35,457 bases of DNA from an uncultured bacterium (GTDB lineage: Bacteria; Bacteroidota; Bacteroidia; Bacteroidales; CAIWKO01): positions 1 through 35,457 of the forward strand of contig CAIOYH010000165.1 of the NCBI GenBank assembly GCA_903862465.1. Direction: 5' to 3'. Numbering within the stretch: the stretch's first letter is position 1; every line of letters begins with the position of its first letter. A model generated the notes under the pieces. The model was given only the letters and a program-made list of their open reading frames with translations, was not told the DNA's origin and did not search any database. Positions 8,522-30,110 of the stretch are shown piece after piece. Made by a program: the position numbers and the translations under genes.

Positions 8522-9211
8522 ATGGGCTTCGATATTCCAAAGCAAATATTGTTTGAAGACAATCATCTTATTGTCATAAATAAATTGCCCGGACAATTGG
8601 TTCAACCCGACACTACGGGCGATGATTCTTTGGAAGAACAGATAAAACTATACATTAAATATAGGTATAACAAACCCGGCGATGCGTTTTTGGGCGTGGC
8701 TCATCGTATTGATAGACCTGTGAGCGGCGCCGTAGTGTTTGCCAAAACGAGCAAGGCATTGGTGCGTCTGAATGAAATGTTGAAACAACACCAACTCAAG
8801 AAAACCTATTGGGCTATTGTAAAAAACCAACCCCCGCAACAGTCAGCTTTGTTGTCGCAGTATATTTTGCGCAACTCCAAACAAAACAAAAGTCAAGTGT
8901 ATAACATGCCTGTCAAGGATGCTTTGTTGGCAGAGCTCACCTATAAACTCATTGGCAGCAGCGAACGCTATTATTTGTTGGAGATTGATTTGATGACGGG
9001 ACGCCACCACCAAATCCGCGCCCAATTGGCTTCCATCAACTGCCCGATTCAGGGCGATATTAAATACGGTTCGCAACGCAGCAACCCCGATGGCTCCATC
9101 TGTTTGCATGCACGCACCCTTGAGTTTACCCACCCCGTAAGCCAACAAGCTATGCTGATTGAAGCTCCTGTGCCGGAAAATAATTTGTGGAAGTTATTTG
9201 CGAGTACTTAA
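8522..9211 (+). CDS. RluA-family RNA pseudouridine synthase
   Basis: This 229-residue enzyme isomerises specific uridines to pseudouridine in rRNA or tRNA. Family motifs are ILFEDNHLIVINKLPG near the start and AHRIDRPVSGAVVFAK at residues 60-75, where Asp64 is the catalytic aspartate (HRID in place of the commoner HRLD). MTGRHHQIRAQLA and CLHARTLEFTHP occur further on. There is no N-terminal S4 domain, so it is a short, stand-alone type. The target uridine cannot be read from sequence. It is the second gene of the panB operon and is followed 46 bases later by a strong terminator. The 3' half is GC-richer than the neighbouring minus-strand housekeeping genes. Confidence 0.93.
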   Translation: MGFDIPKQILFEDNHLIVINKLPGQLVQPDTTGDDSLEEQIKLYIKYRYNKPGDAFLGVAHRIDRPVSGAVVFAKTSKALVRLNEMLKQHQLKKTYWAIVKNQPPQQSALLSQYILRNSKQNKSQVYNMPVKDALLAELTYKLIGSSERYYLLEIDLMTGRHHQIRAQLASINCPIQGDIKYGSQRSNPDGSICLHARTLEFTHPVSQQAMLIEAPVPENNLWKLFAST

Positions 9212-9241
9212 AGTGCCTAAAGTACTTCAAGTGCCTAAAGT
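9211..9241. repeat. 18-bp direct repeat immediately after the rluA-type stop codon
   Basis: AAGTGCCTAAAGT occurs at 9211-9223 and again at 9229-9241. The first copy overlaps the last base of the stop codon. Like several other repeats in this window, it begins exactly at a gene's 3' end. Confidence 0.7.
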
Positions 9242-9293: not shown

Positions 9294-9352
9294 GCAATAA
9301 GTGTGAAGGTGAAAACTTAGCATATTCGGCAAAACAGGTGCTTGGGTTTGCC

Positions 9353-9555
9353 AACTCGGAGCTCGGACTTACCAACTCGGGGCTCGGACTTACCAACTCG
9401 GGGCTCGGACTTACCAACTCGGGGCTCGGACTTGTCAACTCGGGGCTCGGACTTGTCAACTCGGGGCTCGGACTTGTCAACTCGGAGCTCGGACTTGTCA
9501 ACTCGGAGCTCGGAGTTATCAACTCGGAGCTCGGAGTTATCAACTCGGAGCTTGT
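9353..9555. repeat. 21-bp tandem repeat array (10 units)
   Basis: Units start every 21 bases from 9353 to 9542 with AACTCGG. The consensus is AACTCGG(G/A)GCTCGGACTT followed by ACC, GTC or ATC; the last copy is partial. Variants are ordered: ACC units first, GTC in the middle, ATC at the end, suggesting stepwise local duplication. Because 21 is a multiple of three and the unit has no stop codon in several frames, open frames appear on both strands (for example plus 9338-9598 and minus 9271-9570). I regard these as by-products and not as genes: no signal peptide, no recognisable family and no convincing start. Confidence 0.9.
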
Positions 9556-9741: not shown

Positions 9742-12700
9742 TTATTTCGATTTATCAGGATAAGGAGGCACAGGAGGCGGTTTGGTGTCTATCTTCTTTA
9801 AATCTTCCAAAATCAACTCAATCGCTTTGTTCAATTGCTCATCTTCGCCTGCATATTCTTTGGCGGGGTCGTTCACCACCACCACGTCGGGGTCAACGCC
9901 ATGCCCTTCGATAATCCATTTTTTGCCTTCGGCATCATAATGTGCAAATTCGGGTTTGTTCAGGAAGCCGCCATCCATCAAAGGCAATGAACCTCTGATG
10001 CCTACCACGCCGCCCCAAGTGCGTTGCCCAACGAGCTTGCCAATTTTCAACTCACGGAATTGATAGGGAAACAAATCGCCATCGGAAGCCGAATATTGGT
10101 CAATCAAACATATCTTCGGACCATATTGTTGCTCGATGCCCGCAGTGGATGGGCTTGCATTGCGCGACACTTTCATATAAACCAATTCGCGATTCAAACG
10201 TTCGATAATCATAGGAGAAACATTGCCGCCGCCATTGCCGCGGTCATCAATGATGAGGGCGCTTTTGCTCAATTGCGGATAAAAATGTTTCACAAACTCG
10301 TTTAATCCATCCGCGCCCATGTTGGGAATGTGGATGTAGCCCACCTTGCCGTTGGTGGCGTCGTTCACTTTTTTGATGTTGTTCTGAACCCAATTATAAT
10401 AGTACAAACCCGATTCATCGTCAACAGGAACAACGATAATTTTGTGTGCGCCTTCGGCAGATGCGCTGCTGTTCACAGTGAGTTCCACTTGTTTGTCGGC
10501 GGTGTTAATCAACAGCTCGTTGATGTTGGCGGTGGTGAGCACCGATTTGCCATTCACAGCAATAATAAAATCGCCTTCTTTCACATCCACGCCCACCTCA
10601 GTCAAAGGAGAACGGGTGCTTTCGCCCCAATTTTCGCCCTGCATAATCTTGCCAATTTTATAATATCCTGAAGCATCTTTGGTGATAGTAGCCCCCAACA
10701 AACCCATTTTGATGCGTGCGGGCTGAGGTTTGTCGCCGCCACCCGTATAAGCATGACCGACGCTCAATTCGCCAATCATTTCACCAATAATATAGGTTAA
10801 ATCGGCACGGTGATTGACATAAGCCAACAGCGGTTCATATTTCTTATAGATGGCGGTCCAATTCACCCCGTGCATAGCCGGATCGTAAAAGAAATCGCGC
10901 ATCTGTCGCCACGATTCGGTGAAAATTTGTCGCCATTCCTCTTTCAAATTTACCCATACTTTCATATTGGATAAATCCACATAATCTTTCACTTCTATCT
11001 TGGCTTTCGGGAGGTCAATAACGGCATATTTTCCGTCGGCGAGCAACATTTTCTTTCTATCGGCAGAAATAACGTAATTGCCATAAGCGCCGAGATTCGT
11101 TTCTTTTTTATCTTTCAAATCATAAAGCATCAAAGCAGTTTTAGGTTCCTCAGCCGTGGTGCGGCAATAAAAAACACTGTTGCCGGCAGAACTGATATTC
11201 CAATAAGAACCTGCACCGATGGGAAAAGCAACAATCCGATTCATGATGCCATCCAAGTCAACCACCACATCCACCGTTTTCGTATCCGGTTCTTTGGTCT
11301 CTGCAGGCAAATTCACCTCATCGTCCACAGGTTTGAACGGAGATGGAGTGGCTTTTGCCAAGGTGATTAGATACACTTTGGTCATGTTGGTGTAGGCATG
11401 ATTCCATTCGGTCCAACTATACGTCGGATTGAAATCGCGATTGGACGTGATGAACAAATATTTTCCATCAGCACTAAAGGTCGGATTGCTCGAACTGTAC
11501 CATCCATCCGTAACAGGATATTTTTTTGCGGCAGCCACATCATACAAATATATCTTGGTTTCGGCAGTCTTGTCGGGGCGGGCAAAGGCTATCCATTTGC
11601 TGTCCGGCGACCAACTGAAATCAGAGAACTCCCAATCGGGCGAATCGTCCACAAGGGTCACTTGTTTACTTTCGATGTCAACATATTGCAAGCGCAGTTT
11701 TTTATCTGCCCACAAAAGTTTCTTACTATCGGGCGACCATTGCGGCTGATATTTATAGGTATCACTTTTTGAAGTGAGTTTTATGGCTTTTGACGAACCA
11801 TCTTGGGCAACGATATACACTTCATCCTCGCCTGTAGAATCTGAGATAAAGGCGATGAGCTTTCCATCGGGCGACCATGTAACGCTGCGTTCGTGAACGC
11901 CGGATGTTTGCGTCAGGTTGCGGGTGATGCCTGTCTTAGCAGGAACGGTGTAAATATCGCCGCGCCCACTAAAAACTATACGTTTGCCATCGGAAGCCAC
12001 ATCAAAAGAGGTGATGTTTTTTGAAGCATCTTTCATTTCGCTGCGCCCGGTGTTCAAATCGTCGGCAATTTGGATGCTCACCTTTTGCGACTTTTGCGAT
12101 TTCAAATCATAATAATAGATGTAACCTCCATTTTCATAAACAATACTACTATCGCCCAAGGAAGGGAACTTGATGTCGAACTCGGTGAAGTCGGTAAGCT
12201 TTTTCGTTTCTTTAGTGGTGAGATTATAACCGAAAAGATTCATGGTGCGGTCGCGGTCGGATAAAAAATAAAGGGTGCTACCGTTCCACATGGGAAAAAT
12301 ATCTTGGGCGATATTGTCGGTGATTTGTTGCGTTTGCTTGGTTGCGAAATCATAAATCCAAATGTCGTCAGCCATGCCACCTTTATAATATTTCCAGGTG
12401 CGGAATTCGCGAAACACTTTGTTGTAGGCAAGCTGCGTTTTGTCGGCAGAATAGCTGCAAAATCCGCCACAGGGCAGGGGCAGTTCTTCTATCATGCCGC
12501 CATCAATAGAAACGCTAAAGAGCTGTCCTTTGAAAGCATTGAACGATTTCATGCGCGAGCGAAAGATAATGGTTTGATTGTCTTTCCATGTCATCACGAT
12601 ATTGTTGGGACCCATACGGTCAGAAAGGTCGTCACGGTCGAGGGTGGGGGTGAAGGTCAAACGTTTCGGAACACCACCATTGGCAGGAATCACATACACT

Positions 12701-12966
12701 TCGGTGTTGCCGTCATATTGCCCCGTGAAGGCGATGTTTTTCCCATCGGGAGAGAATTTGGCGAACATTTCGTAGCCAACATCGGTGGTGAGTTTGCGGG
12801 CAATGCCTCCTTTTTTGTCCACAGTATAAAGATCGCCGGCATAGGAAAAGACGATTTTATTGCCTGAGATGGTTGGGAAACGGAGCAAACGGCTTTCGCT
12901 TTGAGCAGAGATCCGTATTGAGAAAAGAAGTAATAGACTTAAAAGAACTAAAAGTTTTGTTTTCAT
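9742..12966 (-). CDS. Exported tricorn-type protease (S41 family)
   Basis: This 1074-residue peptidase is close in length to archaeal Tricorn (about 1070). A signal peptide (residues 1-21, ending RISAQ) predicts export to the periplasm or beyond, unlike cytoplasmic archaeal Tricorn. Residues about 25-330 and 330-640 hold TolB/WD40-like propeller repeats (FSPDGKNIAFTG, WSPDGKLIAFISD, WSPDSKKLLWAD, WSPDSKWIAFARP, FSADGKYLFITS). A core-like segment (about 690-755), a PDZ domain (about 760-850) and the S41 catalytic domain (about 870-1045) follow. Catalytic residues by comparison with Tricorn are His738 (VGHAY), Ser961 (YSASDGD, oxyanion Asp962) and Glu1020 (IIEGHG). The Ser that precedes the His in Tricorn is Gly here. 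The tail is Pro-rich. It likely degrades peptides in the envelope. The gene is monocistronic. Confidence 0.93.
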   Translation of the reverse strand: MKTKLLVLLSLLLLFSIRISAQSESRLLRFPTISGNKIVFSYAGDLYTVDKKGGIARKLTTDVGYEMFAKFSPDGKNIAFTGQYDGNTEVYVIPANGGVPKRLTFTPTLDRDDLSDRMGPNNIVMTWKDNQTIIFRSRMKSFNAFKGQLFSVSIDGGMIEELPLPCGGFCSYSADKTQLAYNKVFREFRTWKYYKGGMADDIWIYDFATKQTQQITDNIAQDIFPMWNGSTLYFLSDRDRTMNLFGYNLTTKETKKLTDFTEFDIKFPSLGDSSIVYENGGYIYYYDLKSQKSQKVSIQIADDLNTGRSEMKDASKNITSFDVASDGKRIVFSGRGDIYTVPAKTGITRNLTQTSGVHERSVTWSPDGKLIAFISDSTGEDEVYIVAQDGSSKAIKLTSKSDTYKYQPQWSPDSKKLLWADKKLRLQYVDIESKQVTLVDDSPDWEFSDFSWSPDSKWIAFARPDKTAETKIYLYDVAAAKKYPVTDGWYSSSNPTFSADGKYLFITSNRDFNPTYSWTEWNHAYTNMTKVYLITLAKATPSPFKPVDDEVNLPAETKEPDTKTVDVVVDLDGIMNRIVAFPIGAGSYWNISSAGNSVFYCRTTAEEPKTALMLYDLKDKKETNLGAYGNYVISADRKKMLLADGKYAVIDLPKAKIEVKDYVDLSNMKVWVNLKEEWRQIFTESWRQMRDFFYDPAMHGVNWTAIYKKYEPLLAYVNHRADLTYIIGEMIGELSVGHAYTGGGDKPQPARIKMGLLGATITKDASGYYKIGKIMQGENWGESTRSPLTEVGVDVKEGDFIIAVNGKSVLTTANINELLINTADKQVELTVNSSASAEGAHKIIVVPVDDESGLYYYNWVQNNIKKVNDATNGKVGYIHIPNMGADGLNEFVKHFYPQLSKSALIIDDRGNGGGNVSPMIIERLNRELVYMKVSRNASPSTAGIEQQYGPKICLIDQYSASDGDLFPYQFRELKIGKLVGQRTWGGVVGIRGSLPLMDGGFLNKPEFAHYDAEGKKWIIEGHGVDPDVVVVNDPAKEYAGEDEQLNKAIELILEDLKKIDTKPPPVPPYPDKSK

Positions 12967-16476: not shown

Positions 16477-16592
16477 CTACGAATTACGAATTGACGAATT
16501 ACGAATCATCGCTACAGGTTTGAAGTTCATTTTTGCTTATTCTATTTATGGTGTTTTGTGGCATTAGTAATTCGTATATTCGTAATTCGTAG
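16477..16592. repeat. Inverted repeat of ACGAATTACGAAT units
   Basis: The left arm, starting CTACGAATTACGAATT at 16477, has two ACGAATTACGAAT copies. The right arm (about 16562-16592) is its imperfect reverse complement. About 54 bases lie between the arms. Related units occur at about 19380-19410 and in degraded form at 34603-34628. It could fold into a stem of about 30 bp. Confidence 0.8.
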
Positions 16593-18033: not shown

Positions 18034-19323
18034 ATGGATAAGAATACTAATGACATATTGCGTGAAAGTAATGCTCGCCTTAATTTGGCAATGAATGCCG
18101 CTCACATGGCTTGGTGGGAAATGGACATAAGCACAGGCAATGTGGTATTTGATAAACACAAGACCGAAATGCTGGGCTATGATGCTGCTGAGTTTACGCA
18201 TTTCAAAGATTTTATGGCTTTGGTGCATCTCGAAGACGTGTCAAAAGCGATGCAGGCTATGCATAATCATATTGATGGTTCAATGGATAAATATGAAGTA
18301 GAGTATCGTATTCGAACTAACGTAGGTGACTATAAATGGTTTCATGATATTGGTTCGATAACCCAACGGGATGATGAAGGCAAGCCGTTGAAGGTGGCAG
18401 GTTTGGTCATAGACATTAGCGAGCGCAAGCAAATGGAATTGGAATTTAATGCAAACAACGAACGTTTTCAATCGGTTGCCGACCACGTTTCCGCTTTTAT
18501 CGCGTATGTGAATGTTGATACGTTGAAGTATGAGTTTGTGAACAAAATGTTTGTGGATAGTTTTGGGATGCCTCGCGAAAAGATTATTGGTAGTCATGTT
18601 CGGGATGTTATTGGAGAGGATAATTATAAGTATGCTATAAAGTATATAGAGATGGTTCGCTCAGGCAAGAAAGCTTCCTACGAAAACACTTTCATGGTAG
18701 CTTCGGGCAGACGATGGATAGATGTAAACTATTCGCCGGTGTTTGATAGCAATGGAAAGGTTACATCCATTGTTGTGATGAGTTATGATGTGACCGAGCG
18801 CAAACAGCGAGAAGCACAATTGCGAAATCTACAAAAAGCCATAGAAGAATCGCACGACATAGTGTTTATAACCGATACCGAAGGTATCATCACCTTCATC
18901 AACTCAAGCTTTACGGCGATTTACGGTTTCACTGCACAAGAAGTGGTTGGCAAAGTAACTCCACGCATTCTCAATAGTGGTAAATCTACAAAAGAAATGC
19001 ACACCACATATTGGAATGCAATGCTGAAAGGGCTAGAACTTCGTCACGAATATCAAAATAAGTGCAAGGACGGCAGCTTGATTGATATTGAAGGCTCAGC
19101 TAGCGCCATCTATGATGAACAGAAAAACATCATCGGATTTTTAGCCATACAGCGCGACATCACCCAACACAAACGCGAAGAGCAAGAACTCATCAAAACC
19201 AACAGACGCCTAGAACAACTCAACAGTTTCTTTGTTGATAGAGAAAACAGGATGATAGAGCTGAAACAGGAGATAAATGAATTATGTGTGAGGCTAGGGG
19301 AGGAGAAGCCTTATATGTGGTGA
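18034..19323 (+). CDS. Three-PAS-domain protein without an output domain
   Basis: This 429-residue, apparently cytoplasmic protein has no signal peptide or membrane helix. Three PAS domains are visible: the first about 10-132 (AWWEMDISTGNVVFD, YRIRTNVGDYKWFHD, VAGLVIDISERKQME; PAS_3-like), the second about 140-260 (VSAFIAYVNVDTLKYEFVN, VVMSYDVTERKQRE) and the third about 263-382 (DIVFITDTEGIITFINSSF, IYGFTAQEVVGKVTPRIL, IQRDITQHKREE). A final coiled coil of about 45 residues contains RENRMIELKQEINELCVRLGEE and then stops. This coiled coil usually links PAS modules to another module, yet here no histidine kinase, GGDEF, cyclase or DNA-binding domain follows and no such gene is adjacent. It probably senses a small ligand or redox state and acts by dimerising with a partner encoded elsewhere. 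The ligand cannot be inferred. Confidence 0.9.
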   Translation: MDKNTNDILRESNARLNLAMNAAHMAWWEMDISTGNVVFDKHKTEMLGYDAAEFTHFKDFMALVHLEDVSKAMQAMHNHIDGSMDKYEVEYRIRTNVGDYKWFHDIGSITQRDDEGKPLKVAGLVIDISERKQMELEFNANNERFQSVADHVSAFIAYVNVDTLKYEFVNKMFVDSFGMPREKIIGSHVRDVIGEDNYKYAIKYIEMVRSGKKASYENTFMVASGRRWIDVNYSPVFDSNGKVTSIVVMSYDVTERKQREAQLRNLQKAIEESHDIVFITDTEGIITFINSSFTAIYGFTAQEVVGKVTPRILNSGKSTKEMHTTYWNAMLKGLELRHEYQNKCKDGSLIDIEGSASAIYDEQKNIIGFLAIQRDITQHKREEQELIKTNRRLEQLNSFFVDRENRMIELKQEINELCVRLGEEKPYMW

Positions 19324-19325
19324 AA

Positions 19326-19410
19326 CAAGCTCCAAATTCCAAGCTCCAAAAACCAAATACCAAGGCTTGCCACAACGAATATTACCCTACGAATTACGAA
19401 TGTTCGAATT
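19326..19410 (+). repeat. Composite repeat element at the PAS gene 3' end
   Basis: Two bases after the stop codon comes CAAGCTCCAAATTCCAAGC, then a CCAAATACCAAGGCTTG segment, then CTACGAATTACGAAT and a second CGAATTACGAAT. The order and orientation relative to the upstream stop codon are the same as at the aminotransferase 3' end (16622 down to 16477). Confidence 0.8.
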
Positions 19411-19444
19411 ACGAATGACCCTTGCCATGTGGCGGGGTATGCAT

Positions 19445-19742
19445 AGCAGTCTGCTATATTATATCCGCCGAAGGGCGGGGTAGGTTTAGCAGTCTGCTAT
19501 ATGATATCCGCCGAAGGGCGGGGTAGGCTTAGCAGTTTGCTATATGGTATCCGCCGAAGGGCGGGGTAGGTTTAGCAGTCTGCTATATGGCATCCGCCGA
19601 AGGGCGGGGTAGGCTTAGCAGTCTGCTATATGGTATCCGCCGAAGGGCGGGGTAGGCTTAGCAGTCTGCTATATGATATCCGCCGAAGGGCGGGGTAGGC
19701 TTAGCAGTCTGCTATATGATATCCGCCGAAGGGCGGGGTAGG
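19445..19742. repeat. 43-bp tandem array with two palindromes per unit (7 units)
   Basis: Units start at 19445, 19488, 19531, 19574, 19617, 19660 and 19703. Each has AGCAGTCTGCT, which with flanking bases makes the 13-bp palindrome TAGCAGTCTGCTA, then TATNNNATCC, then CCGCCGAAGGGCGG (a 5-bp stem with loop GAAG), then GGTAGG(C/T)TT. Differences between units are few and concentrate in the three bases between the two palindromes and at base 41. A degenerate half unit (GGCGGGGTATGCAT) precedes the array. There are no unique spacers, so it is not CRISPR. It sits between convergent transcription units. Confidence 0.92.
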
Positions 19743-19856
19743 CAATCGAGTGTCGGTTACTATATCAGCCAAATGTCAGGAAAGGCAAAGTAGTCTCCAA
19801 GTATATGCTTTGCACTAGCGAATATTGTCATACGTGGGTTAGAGTGTTGGAATGTT

Positions 19857-19919: not shown

Positions 19920-22900
19920 TTATGCTCTTTGTGCTCGCAGGCTGCGTCTGTATTGTCGGTTGGAGGAGCGACGTTTCATGCGGACTTTCATGCGATAGGC
20001 GATGAGGTACATGGCAGGGACAAAGAGTAGCGTGAGGAAGGTGGCGAAGCTAAGCCCGAAGATGATGGTCCAGGAAAGGGAGCCCCAGAACATGACGTTG
20101 TCGCCGCCGAAGTGGATGTGGGGGTTGAGTTCGGTGAAGAGGGTGATGAAGTTGATGTTCATGCCTATGGCGAGCGGTACTAAGCCAAGGATGGTGGCAG
20201 TGGCGGTTAGGACGACGGGGGTGATACGTGTTTTTCCGGCTTCAACGATGGCTTCGCGGGTTTTCATTCCTTTGGCTTTGAGTACGTCGGTGAATTCGAC
20301 AATGAGTATTCCGTTGCGGACGACGATGCCTCCAAGAGCTACTACACCTAAACCGGTCATGATGACGGATATGTCCATGTGGAACATGACGATGCCGAGC
20401 AGCACTCCGATGATGGAGAAGATGACTTCGCTCAGGATGATGATGGATTTGGACAGGGAGTTGAATTGTGTGATGAGGATGAAGAATATGAGTCCAAGGG
20501 CGATGATCATGGCTGTTGATAGGAAGTTCATGGAGTCTTTTTGTTCGACGTCTTCACCGGTTAGCACAATTTCTACGCCGCTGGGTTTTTGGAATGTGGC
20601 GGCTTCTTTACGGATGCGGGATACGATTTCGTTGGTGTTGAATCCGGGCAAGACTTCGGAGGATACGGTGATGACGCGTTTGAAGTTTTTGCGGTTGATG
20701 CCGCCGTAGGTGTTGCTATATTTCATTCTAGCGACAGAGGATAGGGGGATTTGTCGGACTTGTCCGTTAGCCATGTCGCGATAGGTGATTTTCATGTCCA
20801 TTATTTGGTTGATGTTTTTGCGTTGTAGGTCGGCGTAGCGGAGCATGATGGGGAATTCGTCTTCGTTTTCTTTGAATTTGGAGACTTCTTTTCCGAAGAT
20901 GGCGTTGCGGAGTTCCATGCCGATTTGTCCTGTGGATAGTCCTTCGTGGTTGGCGCGGATGCGGTCAACGTCAACGAGTATTTCGGGTTTGTTTTCGACG
21001 AAGTCGGATTTGAGTTCGTCTATGCCCGGAATCTGCAATGAGTCGAGATATTTTTTGAATCCGTTGGCGGCTATCATAAGGGGAGCTATGTCTTCACCAC
21101 TGATTTCGATGTTGACGGGTTTGCCGGTGGGCGGTCCCATTTTGTTTTTCTGTACGGAGATTTGTGCGCCGGGGATGTTTTTGACAGCGTCGCGTATCTT
21201 CTTCATGTAGGGATTTGTTTTTTCACCTTTACGGAATTTATATTCAACGAAATTGATGGCGATTTTGCCTTTGTGGCTCATGGCTGATCGGTCGAAGAAG
21301 GTTCCTTCGCCTGCACCTGCTGCCACATTGGTGATGATAGATTCGACGATGGGGTTGTTTTTGCCGATGGTAGCCTCAATTTTGCCTTCAACTACTTTGG
21401 TGACCGAGTCGGTGATATGTTGGTCGGTCCCAACAGGCAAAGCCACGAAAATATTGATGGTGTTGGGGTCATTGTCAGGAAAAAACACTACTGCGGGTTT
21501 GCTGATGCTGACGATGACCATCGTTAGGAAAAACAATCCGACGATGCCACCTAAGAATGCCCACGGTCTGTTGCGAACTAGGACGACGCGCAAGGATTTT
21601 TCGTACATACGCATGATACGGGGCCAGAACTTTTCTTGGAACATGGTGATGAGATGACGCAAAACGAAATCGTAGAACAATATCATCAGATAGCAAAATA
21701 CCATGAAGTTGCCTATGCCTACCCATCCAATTAAATAGGAAACGAGTGCCATTCCACCAAAGATAATTAACCATTTGATGAGTTTGCGGGCTTCTACTTT
21801 AGTTCCTTTTTCTTCTACATCAAATTCATGTTTCATAAAAGACACGGCAAAGACAGGGTTGATGACGTAAGCCACAAAGAGGGAAGCGAAGAGGGTTATG
21901 ATTAAGGTGACGGGCATATAGTACATGAACTTGCCGACGATGCCGGGCCAAAATGCCAAGGGGAAGAAGGGTGCCAGGGTGGTGAGGGTTCCGGAGAGGA
22001 TGGGGGCAAATACTTCCCCGGCAGCGGATTTGGCTGCTTTGACAATGTCGGGCTCCCCTCGATGGATGCGGTGTGTGTTTTCGATGACCACAATGGCATC
22101 GTCAACTACAATTCCCAACGCAAAAATAAATCCAAACATGACAATCATATTCATGGAAAATCCTAAACCCGGCATAATCATATAGGCTATAAACATGGAT
22201 AAAGGAACGGATAAGCCAACGAAGAAGGCATTGGTGAAGCCCATGAAAAACATTAAAACGAGAATGACGAGAATGAATCCGATGATGATGGTGTTGTTGA
22301 GTTCTTCAAGGGTGTTTTTGGTGAAGCGGGATTGGTCGCCCGTTACGGTAACTTTTAAATCGTTGGGATAGGTATTTTCTTTTAAATCCTGTGTGATTTC
22401 TTTAATTTGATCAGCAGCTTCAATCAGATTTTGCCCGCTGCGTTTAATTACATTTAAGGTGATTACATTCTCTCCATTTAAACGTGAGAAGCTTTCTTGT
22501 TCTTTGAAACCATCCACGAGTTGGGCTACATCTTTGAGATATACCATCGCGCCTGTGGTTGATTTGAGGACAATGTTGTCTAAGTCGCGGGCGCTTTTGA
22601 ATTCGCCGCTGACGCGTATGGTGCGTTTCATGCCGTAGGAAGAAATATCACCTGCAGAAACGGTTCTGTTTTCGGAGGCGACGGCACGTTCTACATCGGA
22701 CATGGCAACACCTGCAGCTTGCATCTTATACATATCCACGTTTATTTGGATTTCGCGTTCGAGGGCTCCAGCGATATCCACCCGGGTGATTTCTTTGAGG
22801 GATTCGATACGGTCTTGAGCGACCTCAGCATATTTACGGAGTTTCTCTAAGTCATAATTGCCGGAAATCTGAAGATACATGATGGGGATTTCGGAGAAAT

Positions 22901-23327
22901 CTATTTCCATTACGTCGGGGTCTTTGGGCAAATCGTTTGGCAATTGGGCTTTGGCTTTGTCAATAGCATCCTTTACCTTTTGTTTGGCATCGCCTACTGA
23001 CACATTGGTGTTGAATTCAACGACGATGCTGCAAAAGTCTTGAACGGAATTGCTGGATACTGTCTTTACGCCTGAAATGGATTTGAGTTGTTTTTCAATA
23101 GGACGTGTGATGAGGTTCTCGATATCCACAGGGGATGTTCCGGGATATACCGTTGTGACCAACACCGTGGGGACAATGATTTCGGGGAATTGCTCTTTTG
23201 GGATAGATATATAACTCTTGATTCCGAGTATCGTTATGAGCACAACCAAAACATAAATACTCGTTTTGTTATCAATAGCCCAACTGGTCGCAAAGAATTC
23301 TTTGATTTTATCTTTAGCTTTTTTCAT
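19920..23327 (-). CDS. RND efflux permease (AcrB/HAE1-like inner-membrane pump)
   Basis: This 1135-residue proton-driven inner-membrane pump forms the core of a tripartite export complex. It has TM1 (about 23-40), a first periplasmic loop (about 42-335, starting SIPKEQFPEIIVPTVLVTTVYPGTSPVDIE, shown in part), TM2-TM6 with the family signature GIVVDDAIVVIENTHR carrying the proton-relay Asp pair, a second large loop and TM8-TM12 (FNSLSKSIIILSEV, GGIVVRNGILIVEFTD). The second-repeat counterpart has VVRNGILIVE. Two extra hydrophobic segments (LIKWLIIFGGMALVSYLIGW and FMVFCYLMILFYDFVL) lie between TM6 and TM7. The C-terminus is Arg-rich (RMKRRSSNRQYRRSLRA). It is the last gene of the tetR-tolC-adaptor-pump operon. 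The 3' half is clearly GC-richer than the 5' part. Drug or lipid export is more likely than metal export, but the substrate is unknown. Confidence 0.95.
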   Translation of the reverse strand: MKKAKDKIKEFFATSWAIDNKTSIYVLVVLITILGIKSYISIPKEQFPEIIVPTVLVTTVYPGTSPVDIENLITRPIEKQLKSISGVKTVSSNSVQDFCSIVVEFNTNVSVGDAKQKVKDAIDKAKAQLPNDLPKDPDVMEIDFSEIPIMYLQISGNYDLEKLRKYAEVAQDRIESLKEITRVDIAGALEREIQINVDMYKMQAAGVAMSDVERAVASENRTVSAGDISSYGMKRTIRVSGEFKSARDLDNIVLKSTTGAMVYLKDVAQLVDGFKEQESFSRLNGENVITLNVIKRSGQNLIEAADQIKEITQDLKENTYPNDLKVTVTGDQSRFTKNTLEELNNTIIIGFILVILVLMFFMGFTNAFFVGLSVPLSMFIAYMIMPGLGFSMNMIVMFGFIFALGIVVDDAIVVIENTHRIHRGEPDIVKAAKSAAGEVFAPILSGTLTTLAPFFPLAFWPGIVGKFMYYMPVTLIITLFASLFVAYVINPVFAVSFMKHEFDVEEKGTKVEARKLIKWLIIFGGMALVSYLIGWVGIGNFMVFCYLMILFYDFVLRHLITMFQEKFWPRIMRMYEKSLRVVLVRNRPWAFLGGIVGLFFLTMVIVSISKPAVVFFPDNDPNTINIFVALPVGTDQHITDSVTKVVEGKIEATIGKNNPIVESIITNVAAGAGEGTFFDRSAMSHKGKIAINFVEYKFRKGEKTNPYMKKIRDAVKNIPGAQISVQKNKMGPPTGKPVNIEISGEDIAPLMIAANGFKKYLDSLQIPGIDELKSDFVENKPEILVDVDRIRANHEGLSTGQIGMELRNAIFGKEVSKFKENEDEFPIMLRYADLQRKNINQIMDMKITYRDMANGQVRQIPLSSVARMKYSNTYGGINRKNFKRVITVSSEVLPGFNTNEIVSRIRKEAATFQKPSGVEIVLTGEDVEQKDSMNFLSTAMIIALGLIFFILITQFNSLSKSIIILSEVIFSIIGVLLGIVMFHMDISVIMTGLGVVALGGIVVRNGILIVEFTDVLKAKGMKTREAIVEAGKTRITPVVLTATATILGLVPLAIGMNINFITLFTELNPHIHFGGDNVMFWGSLSWTIIFGLSFATFLTLLFVPAMYLIAYRMKVRMKRRSSNRQYRRSLRAQRA

Positions 23328-30055: not shown

Positions 30056-30110
30056 GAAGCTTGGGTCTTCATCCTTGGAATTTGGAGCTTGGTATTTGGA
30101 GCTTGGGTCT
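30056..30110. repeat. GCTCCAAATTCC dispersed repeat, inverted copies after lysS
   Basis: Beginning 8 bases after the lysS stop is GAAGCTTGGGTCTTC, then CCTTGGAATTTGGAGCTTGG at 30073 and a second TATTTGGAGCTTGGGTCT ending in a T-rich tract. This is the reverse complement of the element found after the aminotransferase and PAS genes. Confidence 0.75.

Follow-up and report, generated by a model that had tools for sequence, protein, structure and literature searches.

A palindromic 43-bp tandem array in an uncultured Bacteroidota genome and its link to a gene family that carries arrays of constant period upstream

An intergenic array of 43-bp units, each holding two different palindromes, lies in a 35,457-nucleotide stretch of DNA (the window, here the whole of contig C165 of genome G000, 4.2 Mb in 230 contigs), raising the question of what such an array is for and whether it belongs with any gene. 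Judged from neighbouring genes, which carry secretion-tail domains in the sister species, we infer that the host is a member of the Bacteroidota. Tandem Repeats Finder (TRF) reported at 19431-19743 a period of 43 with 7.3 copies, 95% matches, no indels and a score of 556, and this, together with register alignment, bore out the strict period, the seven copies and the two palindromes per unit claimed in a preliminary description of the sequence. More specifically, palindrome 1 (TAGCAGTCTGCTA) is exact in six of the seven units, unit 3 reading TAGCAGTTTGCTA, and CCGCC-GAAG-GGCGG is present in all seven, so that the palindromes are nearly invariant as had been described, except that an extra unit after the array carries other palindromes. 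Variation is confined to the 8-bp spacer (TATTATAT, TATGATAT, TATGGTAT, TATGGCAT) and one T/C site near the unit end, again as the preliminary reading of the units had it. The layout of 13, 8, 14 and 8 bp places the palindrome centres 21.5 bp apart, a distance found also in a second array of the same genome (C52; L126). Coding use of the window array was excluded by the 43-bp period and the TAG in each unit, and a CRISPR array was rejected because the units are contiguous and without variable spacers; there is also no conserved partner gene.

Table 1. Coordinates of the array, its remnants and its neighbours in the window
Feature	Position	Strand	Remarks
Seven in-register 43-bp units	19444..19744	+	Palindrome 1 (13), 8-bp spacer, palindrome 2 (14), 8-bp spacer
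Palindrome 1, unit 1 (TAGCAGTCTGCTA)	19444..19456	+	Later copies start at 19487, 19530 (C to T variant), 19573, 19616, 19659, 19702
Palindrome 2, unit 1 (CCGCCGAAGGGCGG)	19465..19478	+	Later copies start at 19508, 19551, 19594, 19637, 19680, 19723
Partial unit before the array (GGCGGGGTATGCA)	19431..19443	+	Right arm of palindrome 2 and spacer GGTATGCA
Single unit, second sequence type (ATCGAGTGTCGGT TACTATAT CAGCCAAATGTCAG GAAAGGCA)	19745..19787	+	Same 43-bp register, other palindromes
Decayed start of a third type (AAGTAGTCTCCAA...)	19788..19808 (start approximate)	+	Like units at G003 C472 and C17; by eye
Left neighbour, multi-PAS sensor protein	18034..19323	+	Syntenic with the sister-species array C432
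Right neighbour, AcrB/RND transporter	19920..23327	-	Convergent; absent from the sister-species site

Remnants border the array at both ends, and the single unit of the second type is of the kind that fills arrays at C403 and C254 of G003, a genome of the same genus. Apart from the C52 array, the rest of the genome holds neither window palindrome, no family protein (see below) was found encoded in the window, and the leader present at other arrays is absent from this copy. The window array is best called a gene-less solo, or orphan, copy, linked to the gene family only through the C52 array. Other repeats were noticed in the same DNA. Short dispersed repeats of the CCAAGCTCCAAATTCCAA or ACGAATTACGAAT type lie at 19327-19417, 16477-16592 and 30074-30106, and also adjoin arrays in G003 and C52; at the contig edge, 1-690 holds nested repeats whose periods (27, 63, 90, 108) are all multiples of nine and which read on the minus strand as a collagen-like Gly-X-Y protein; and a dispersed 18-bp repeat, AGTACTTAAAGTGCCTAA, at 9203-9241 is common to the two sister species (L061, L063).

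The case of an array unique to its site and absent from relatives, considered in the preliminary description, is not what we found. A search for the unit in its own and related genomes recovered the array at C52:15596-15889, 91% identical to the window array over 286 bp and situated 5' of a gene for a protein of ~316 aa, as well as further 43-bp arrays in G003 with other palindromes, an identical layout and the same 43-bp register throughout. All seven C52 units read CCGCCGAACGGCGG in place of CCGCCGAAGGGCGG, and the palindrome pairs of G003 include TAGCAGTCTGCTA with CTGGCAACTGCCAA, ACCGAGTGTCGGT with CTGCCAAATGTCAA, AACTAGTGTAGGT, AAGTAGTCTATGA with CCCGCATTTGCGGG, and AAGGAGTCTCCGA with TGCCAACTTTGGCA. 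A covariance model of the unit, run over 393 genomes of the order, detected the sequence family in G000 and G003 only, and exact and loose unit patterns found no arrays in 84,980 genomes plus viral contigs, where ten single matches in unrelated phyla look like chance. The sequence family of the unit is thus narrow; its architecture is not.

The architecture follows a gene family. The protein next to the C52 array (316 aa) is one among many paralogues, and all of the paralogues in the genus with enough upstream DNA, apart from one remote relative, have a 42- or 43-bp array whose end lies 100-220 bp upstream of the start. A family profile (A2) searched over 393 genomes of the order reached 17 genomes in 13 genera, and in this discovery set an array was present in 41 of 48 members, the best lag in a scan of 25-70 being 42 (25 times), 43 (15 times) or 41 (once). 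A second profile (A3) over 395 genomes of the class added 25 further genomes, mostly multi-copy; among these held-out members from other orders, 54 of 60 had an array, and the only lags that came out of a scan of 15-100 were 41, 42, 43, 82 and 84. Pooled over about 40 genomes of the class, all draft assemblies, an upstream array accompanied 91 of the 105 members with at least 400 bp of upstream DNA, compared with 7 of 95 downstream, in a member set that includes a few near-identical orthologues. All gene-linked periods fall at 41-43 bp or at roughly double that (82, 84, 85), with a median copy number of 6.5, a median distance to the start codon of 124 bp and the array's 3' end typically 50-240 bp upstream of it. 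The 127 control open reading frames yielded few other arrays (18, 21, 49 bp); the sole additional 41-bp array (L076) led to a gene that proved to be a previously unrecognised member of the family (E 2.7e-16). A sample across the phylum held no additional full-length member outside the class, and no conserved neighbour gene was found except common secretion-tail proteins. Three members (L177, L197, L273) have no visible upstream array, one of them being short of upstream DNA, and show a 41-43-bp array downstream instead, which possibly belongs to a neighbouring member. The array-gene module is well supported, whereas what it does is a matter of inference. Invisible from the sequence alone, this link is the main fact that the preliminary interpretation, partly supported otherwise, did not contain.

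The ~320-aa protein gives few leads of its own. Its helical domain is covered by no Pfam, NCBIfam, PHROGs or PADLOC model, CarboxypepD_reg was matched at the C-terminus of six members, and PDB sequences, plasmid records and phages gave no reliable match. An AlphaFold2 model of A3 (mean pLDDT 92.7, pTM 0.65) consists of helices to about residue 210, followed by a beta sandwich. Foldseek/VIA found no PDB match to it at E <= 0.001, with the helical part barely covered; the highest-ranking hits, all weak, paired the C-terminus with jelly-roll/cupin folds (PirA, Z 9.7; CENP-C/Mif2-type cupins, Z ~8) and the N-terminus with long helices (LemA, Z 9.5), and they say nothing on function. No recognisable DNA-binding fold was found in the family protein, and the pI of the helical domain (median 6.9) is not consistently basic. 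The C-terminal domain varies between members, being exchangeable or absent: members of ~235 aa (L262-L275; G575, G748) consist of the helical domain alone, and because most of them retain the upstream array, the C-terminal domain is dispensable for the array link.

To characterise the arrays as a class, we examined 92 of them against dinucleotide shuffles. The best stem averaged 5.63 bp, compared with 4.09 in shuffles; two stems per unit were present in 50 arrays, compared with 32; and palindrome centres 21-22 bp apart were found in 23 arrays, where 1.1 were expected. In about half of the arrays, only a single palindrome is clear. Arrays with a period of 21 bp, exactly half of 42, were seen as well: one in the window (9352-9552; CAACTCGGAGCTCGGACTTAT, 9.6 copies), between the convergent genes 8522-9211 (+) and 9742-12966 (-), and two lying ~180-190 bp 5' of other uncharacterised genes, namely a 216-aa gene (L064, G000 C41:11491-11753, with palindrome ATGATATCAT in most units) and a 319-aa gene with a helical part and a carboxypeptidase-regulatory-like end (L160, G001 C37). 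The latter two may represent the same principle with one palindrome in place of two.

The palindromes change in a coordinated manner. Across 29 units, 98.6% of the cells of palindrome 1 hold standard pairs, and in four of its five pairs both members have changed, with a covariation score of 0.510, compared with 0.155 when shuffled and at most 0.192 when slid. Similarly, in an unrelated lineage (L221, L222, L224, L226, L280) the arms change together through CG, UA and GC states, with a score of 0.400 compared with 0.109 shuffled and at most 0.145 slid. Within arrays, complementary double changes are only mildly enriched (36 against 44). The selection on both elements that had been suggested earlier is consistent with the co-varying arms, but a mutational mechanism can also keep palindromes; the very recent amplification suggested alongside it holds within an array, where units are near-identical. 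Unit sequence turns over quickly: unit identity is 83% at >90% protein identity and falls to the shuffled level by 40-50% protein identity, and even paralogues that are 80-92% identical can have strongly different units. Across this turnover the period stays at 41-43 bp and the palindromes are kept, while the cross-genus spacer motifs AAACTT, TGCCAT and TACCAT are hardly above shuffles.

Co-varying helices would also be expected if one strand of the array were transcribed into structured RNAs, working either in trans or, ahead of the gene, as an extended 5' leader. Units do form stabler folds than shuffled sequences (mean z -1.9 and -1.7), and several wobble variants in the sister-species family read G-T on the array strand. 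However, single stem changes over the 92 arrays comprise 150 G-T and 161 A-C (p 0.57), with no G-T excess on either strand, the folding z-scores are alike on the two strands, and a search of Rfam gave no match. Because there is no G-T excess and folding is equal, nothing marks either strand as functional RNA, and stem changes without a G-U bias argue for a double-stranded DNA element over RNA; nor does RNA need a fixed 42-bp period or a 21-bp spacing. We therefore regard the RNA reading, which the preliminary description had listed among the possible roles, as improbable.

A comparison of array sites bears on two further explanations. Two orthologous pairs were available between the sister species. 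C52 and G003 C234 are 83% identical over 1,488 bp and share the 316-aa gene (89-90% identical), and palindrome 2 differs in every unit; the window array and G003 C432 are 82% identical over 657 bp, with the identity stopping at 19443, the array edge, and both palindromes differ. In both pairs synteny is retained on one side only. A common leader and trailer were seen at C403, C144, C234, C152, C254, C483 and other sites, and unit types are combined into mosaics; because several of the sites that share leader and trailer are non-orthologous, array copies have spread. The one-sided synteny and the chimaeric arrays that combine two unit types would suit a recombination or exchange platform on which adjacent cassettes are swapped or rearranged. 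The synteny evidence comes from only two pairs in draft assemblies, though, breakpoints at repeats may be a consequence and not the function, and array sequences at different loci are too different for frequent recombination, so that we consider this explanation quite improbable. The position between convergent operons mentioned earlier proved incidental: of the first eight arrays to be examined in the sister-species pair, four have that setting and the rest lie between tandem or divergent genes.

The main rival to a functional platform is a minisatellite like BrickBuilt, neutral or mobile, that is, a non-autonomous element of leader, units and trailer that expands by slippage, keeps its palindromes through quasi-palindrome correction and has no function. 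Consistently with it, leader and trailer are common to non-orthologous loci, unit types form modular mosaics, arrays are intergenic only and units inside an array are near-identical. BrickBuilt itself, a MITE minisatellite of Porphyromonas gingivalis whose leader is reported to have outward promoter activity, is likewise a Bacteroidota element that is always intergenic, with spacerless tandem units between a common leader and tail (PMC4596501). It differs in having a 23-nt unit of a single sequence in one species without an attached protein family (PMC4596501), whereas the gene-linked arrays have units of 41-43 bp, often two palindromes, free sequence and a tie to a gene family. A minisatellite leaves unexplained both why ~90% of the members of one family have an array 5' and not 3' of the gene and why the 41-43-bp period persists while the sequence is lost. 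It is, on our reading, unlikely.

Among other intergenic palindromes, REP/BIME elements served by a RAYT (Y1 transposase) were considered. GTAGG lies directly 5' of palindrome 1 in type-A units, the alternation of palindromes is BIME-like, Y1_Tnp proteins are encoded in all four genomes of the genus, and trailers lead into a REP-like hairpin that is present around a G003 RAYT too. That RAYT gene (L078, G003 C283) lies amid CTCCGCC(N)GGCGGAG hairpins, which also close the trailers of several 43-bp arrays, and GGGCTAAAGCCC repeats. However, no 43-bp unit stands beside any Y1_Tnp gene, GTAG is absent from the other unit types, the unit palindromes are not one sequence family, and the arrays are tied to a different protein and have a strict 42-bp period with unconserved sequence; the explanation is accordingly highly improbable.

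Other known systems share single features with the modules. Plasmid iterons are direct repeats upstream of a rep gene, spaced at ~20-22 bp on one DNA face and bound by a winged-helix Rep protein; the arrays resemble them in their tandem sites ~20-22 bp apart, 5' of a gene and on one face, but are chromosomal and multi-copy with alternating palindromes, and the family matches no Rep model (winged-helix initiator) and nothing among plasmid records. Pneumococcal BOX elements, a single sequence family, consist of a modular leader, a variable number of ~45-bp central units and a trailer, a similar plan, but lack a linked gene family and alternating palindromes every 21 bp. The RptR operator likewise places direct repeats that hold a palindrome upstream of the gene for the dimer that binds them, but comprises three 9-bp repeats of a conserved TAGCTA read by a characterised repressor (PMC12255303). 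No description of the array-gene module was found in the open-access literature searched.

Of the roles proposed in the preliminary description, a multi-site protein-binding array with sites on the same DNA face is the option most supported, given the periods of 41-43 bp (or about twice that) and palindrome centres that cluster at 21-22 bp. We tentatively favour, with slightly less than even confidence, the reading that the array serves a dimeric protein as a DNA platform of many helically phased sites and has a private gene as its partner, and that the window array is an orphan copy. The module would have two parts: (i) a ~320-aa protein whose N-terminal domain is made of long helices and whose C-terminal beta domain varies; and (ii) a tandem array, private to that protein, of 41-43-bp units, often with two palindromes ~21 bp apart, probably acting as double-stranded DNA. 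Since 21 and 42 bp correspond to two and four turns of B-DNA, successive palindromes would lie on one side of the DNA, where adjacent dimers could assemble cooperatively into a nucleoprotein complex that would control the neighbouring promoter or organise that DNA. Candidate binders are the protein encoded by the family itself and a shared architectural protein. Solo arrays would be dispersed copies that may have kept the binding activity or may be relics. Several points count against the platform: the divergence of units among paralogues is difficult to reconcile with a product that reads specific sequences, periods of 41 and 43 bp lose phase over many units, and template-switch repair can keep palindromes without selection. 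The lack of a recognisable DNA-binding fold, the pI of the helical domain, the many arrays with one clear palindrome and the mild enrichment of complementary double changes count against it as well.

The quick divergence among close paralogues argues that geometry is what is recognised or that some other protein binds. With palindromes every 21 bp and units of 42 bp, sequences could diversify quickly under a fixed architecture. It is possible, and we say so with marked reserve, that the modules form a new chromosomal class of Bacteroidota array-protein systems, in which private arrays are read by geometry and not by sequence and solo arrays serve as extra sites.

We know of no counterpart to a multi-copy protein family with arrays of constant spacing and free sequence. 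The gene-linked array of constant period points to a system of control or assembly at the DNA level. If the arrays are phased DNA platforms, they would offer a natural series for studying the recognition of DNA geometry; if they work otherwise, the rule that nearly every copy of the gene has its own 42-bp palindrome array still needs explaining. In either case, array plus gene is a simple handle with which such loci may be found and tested in cultivable Bacteroidota.
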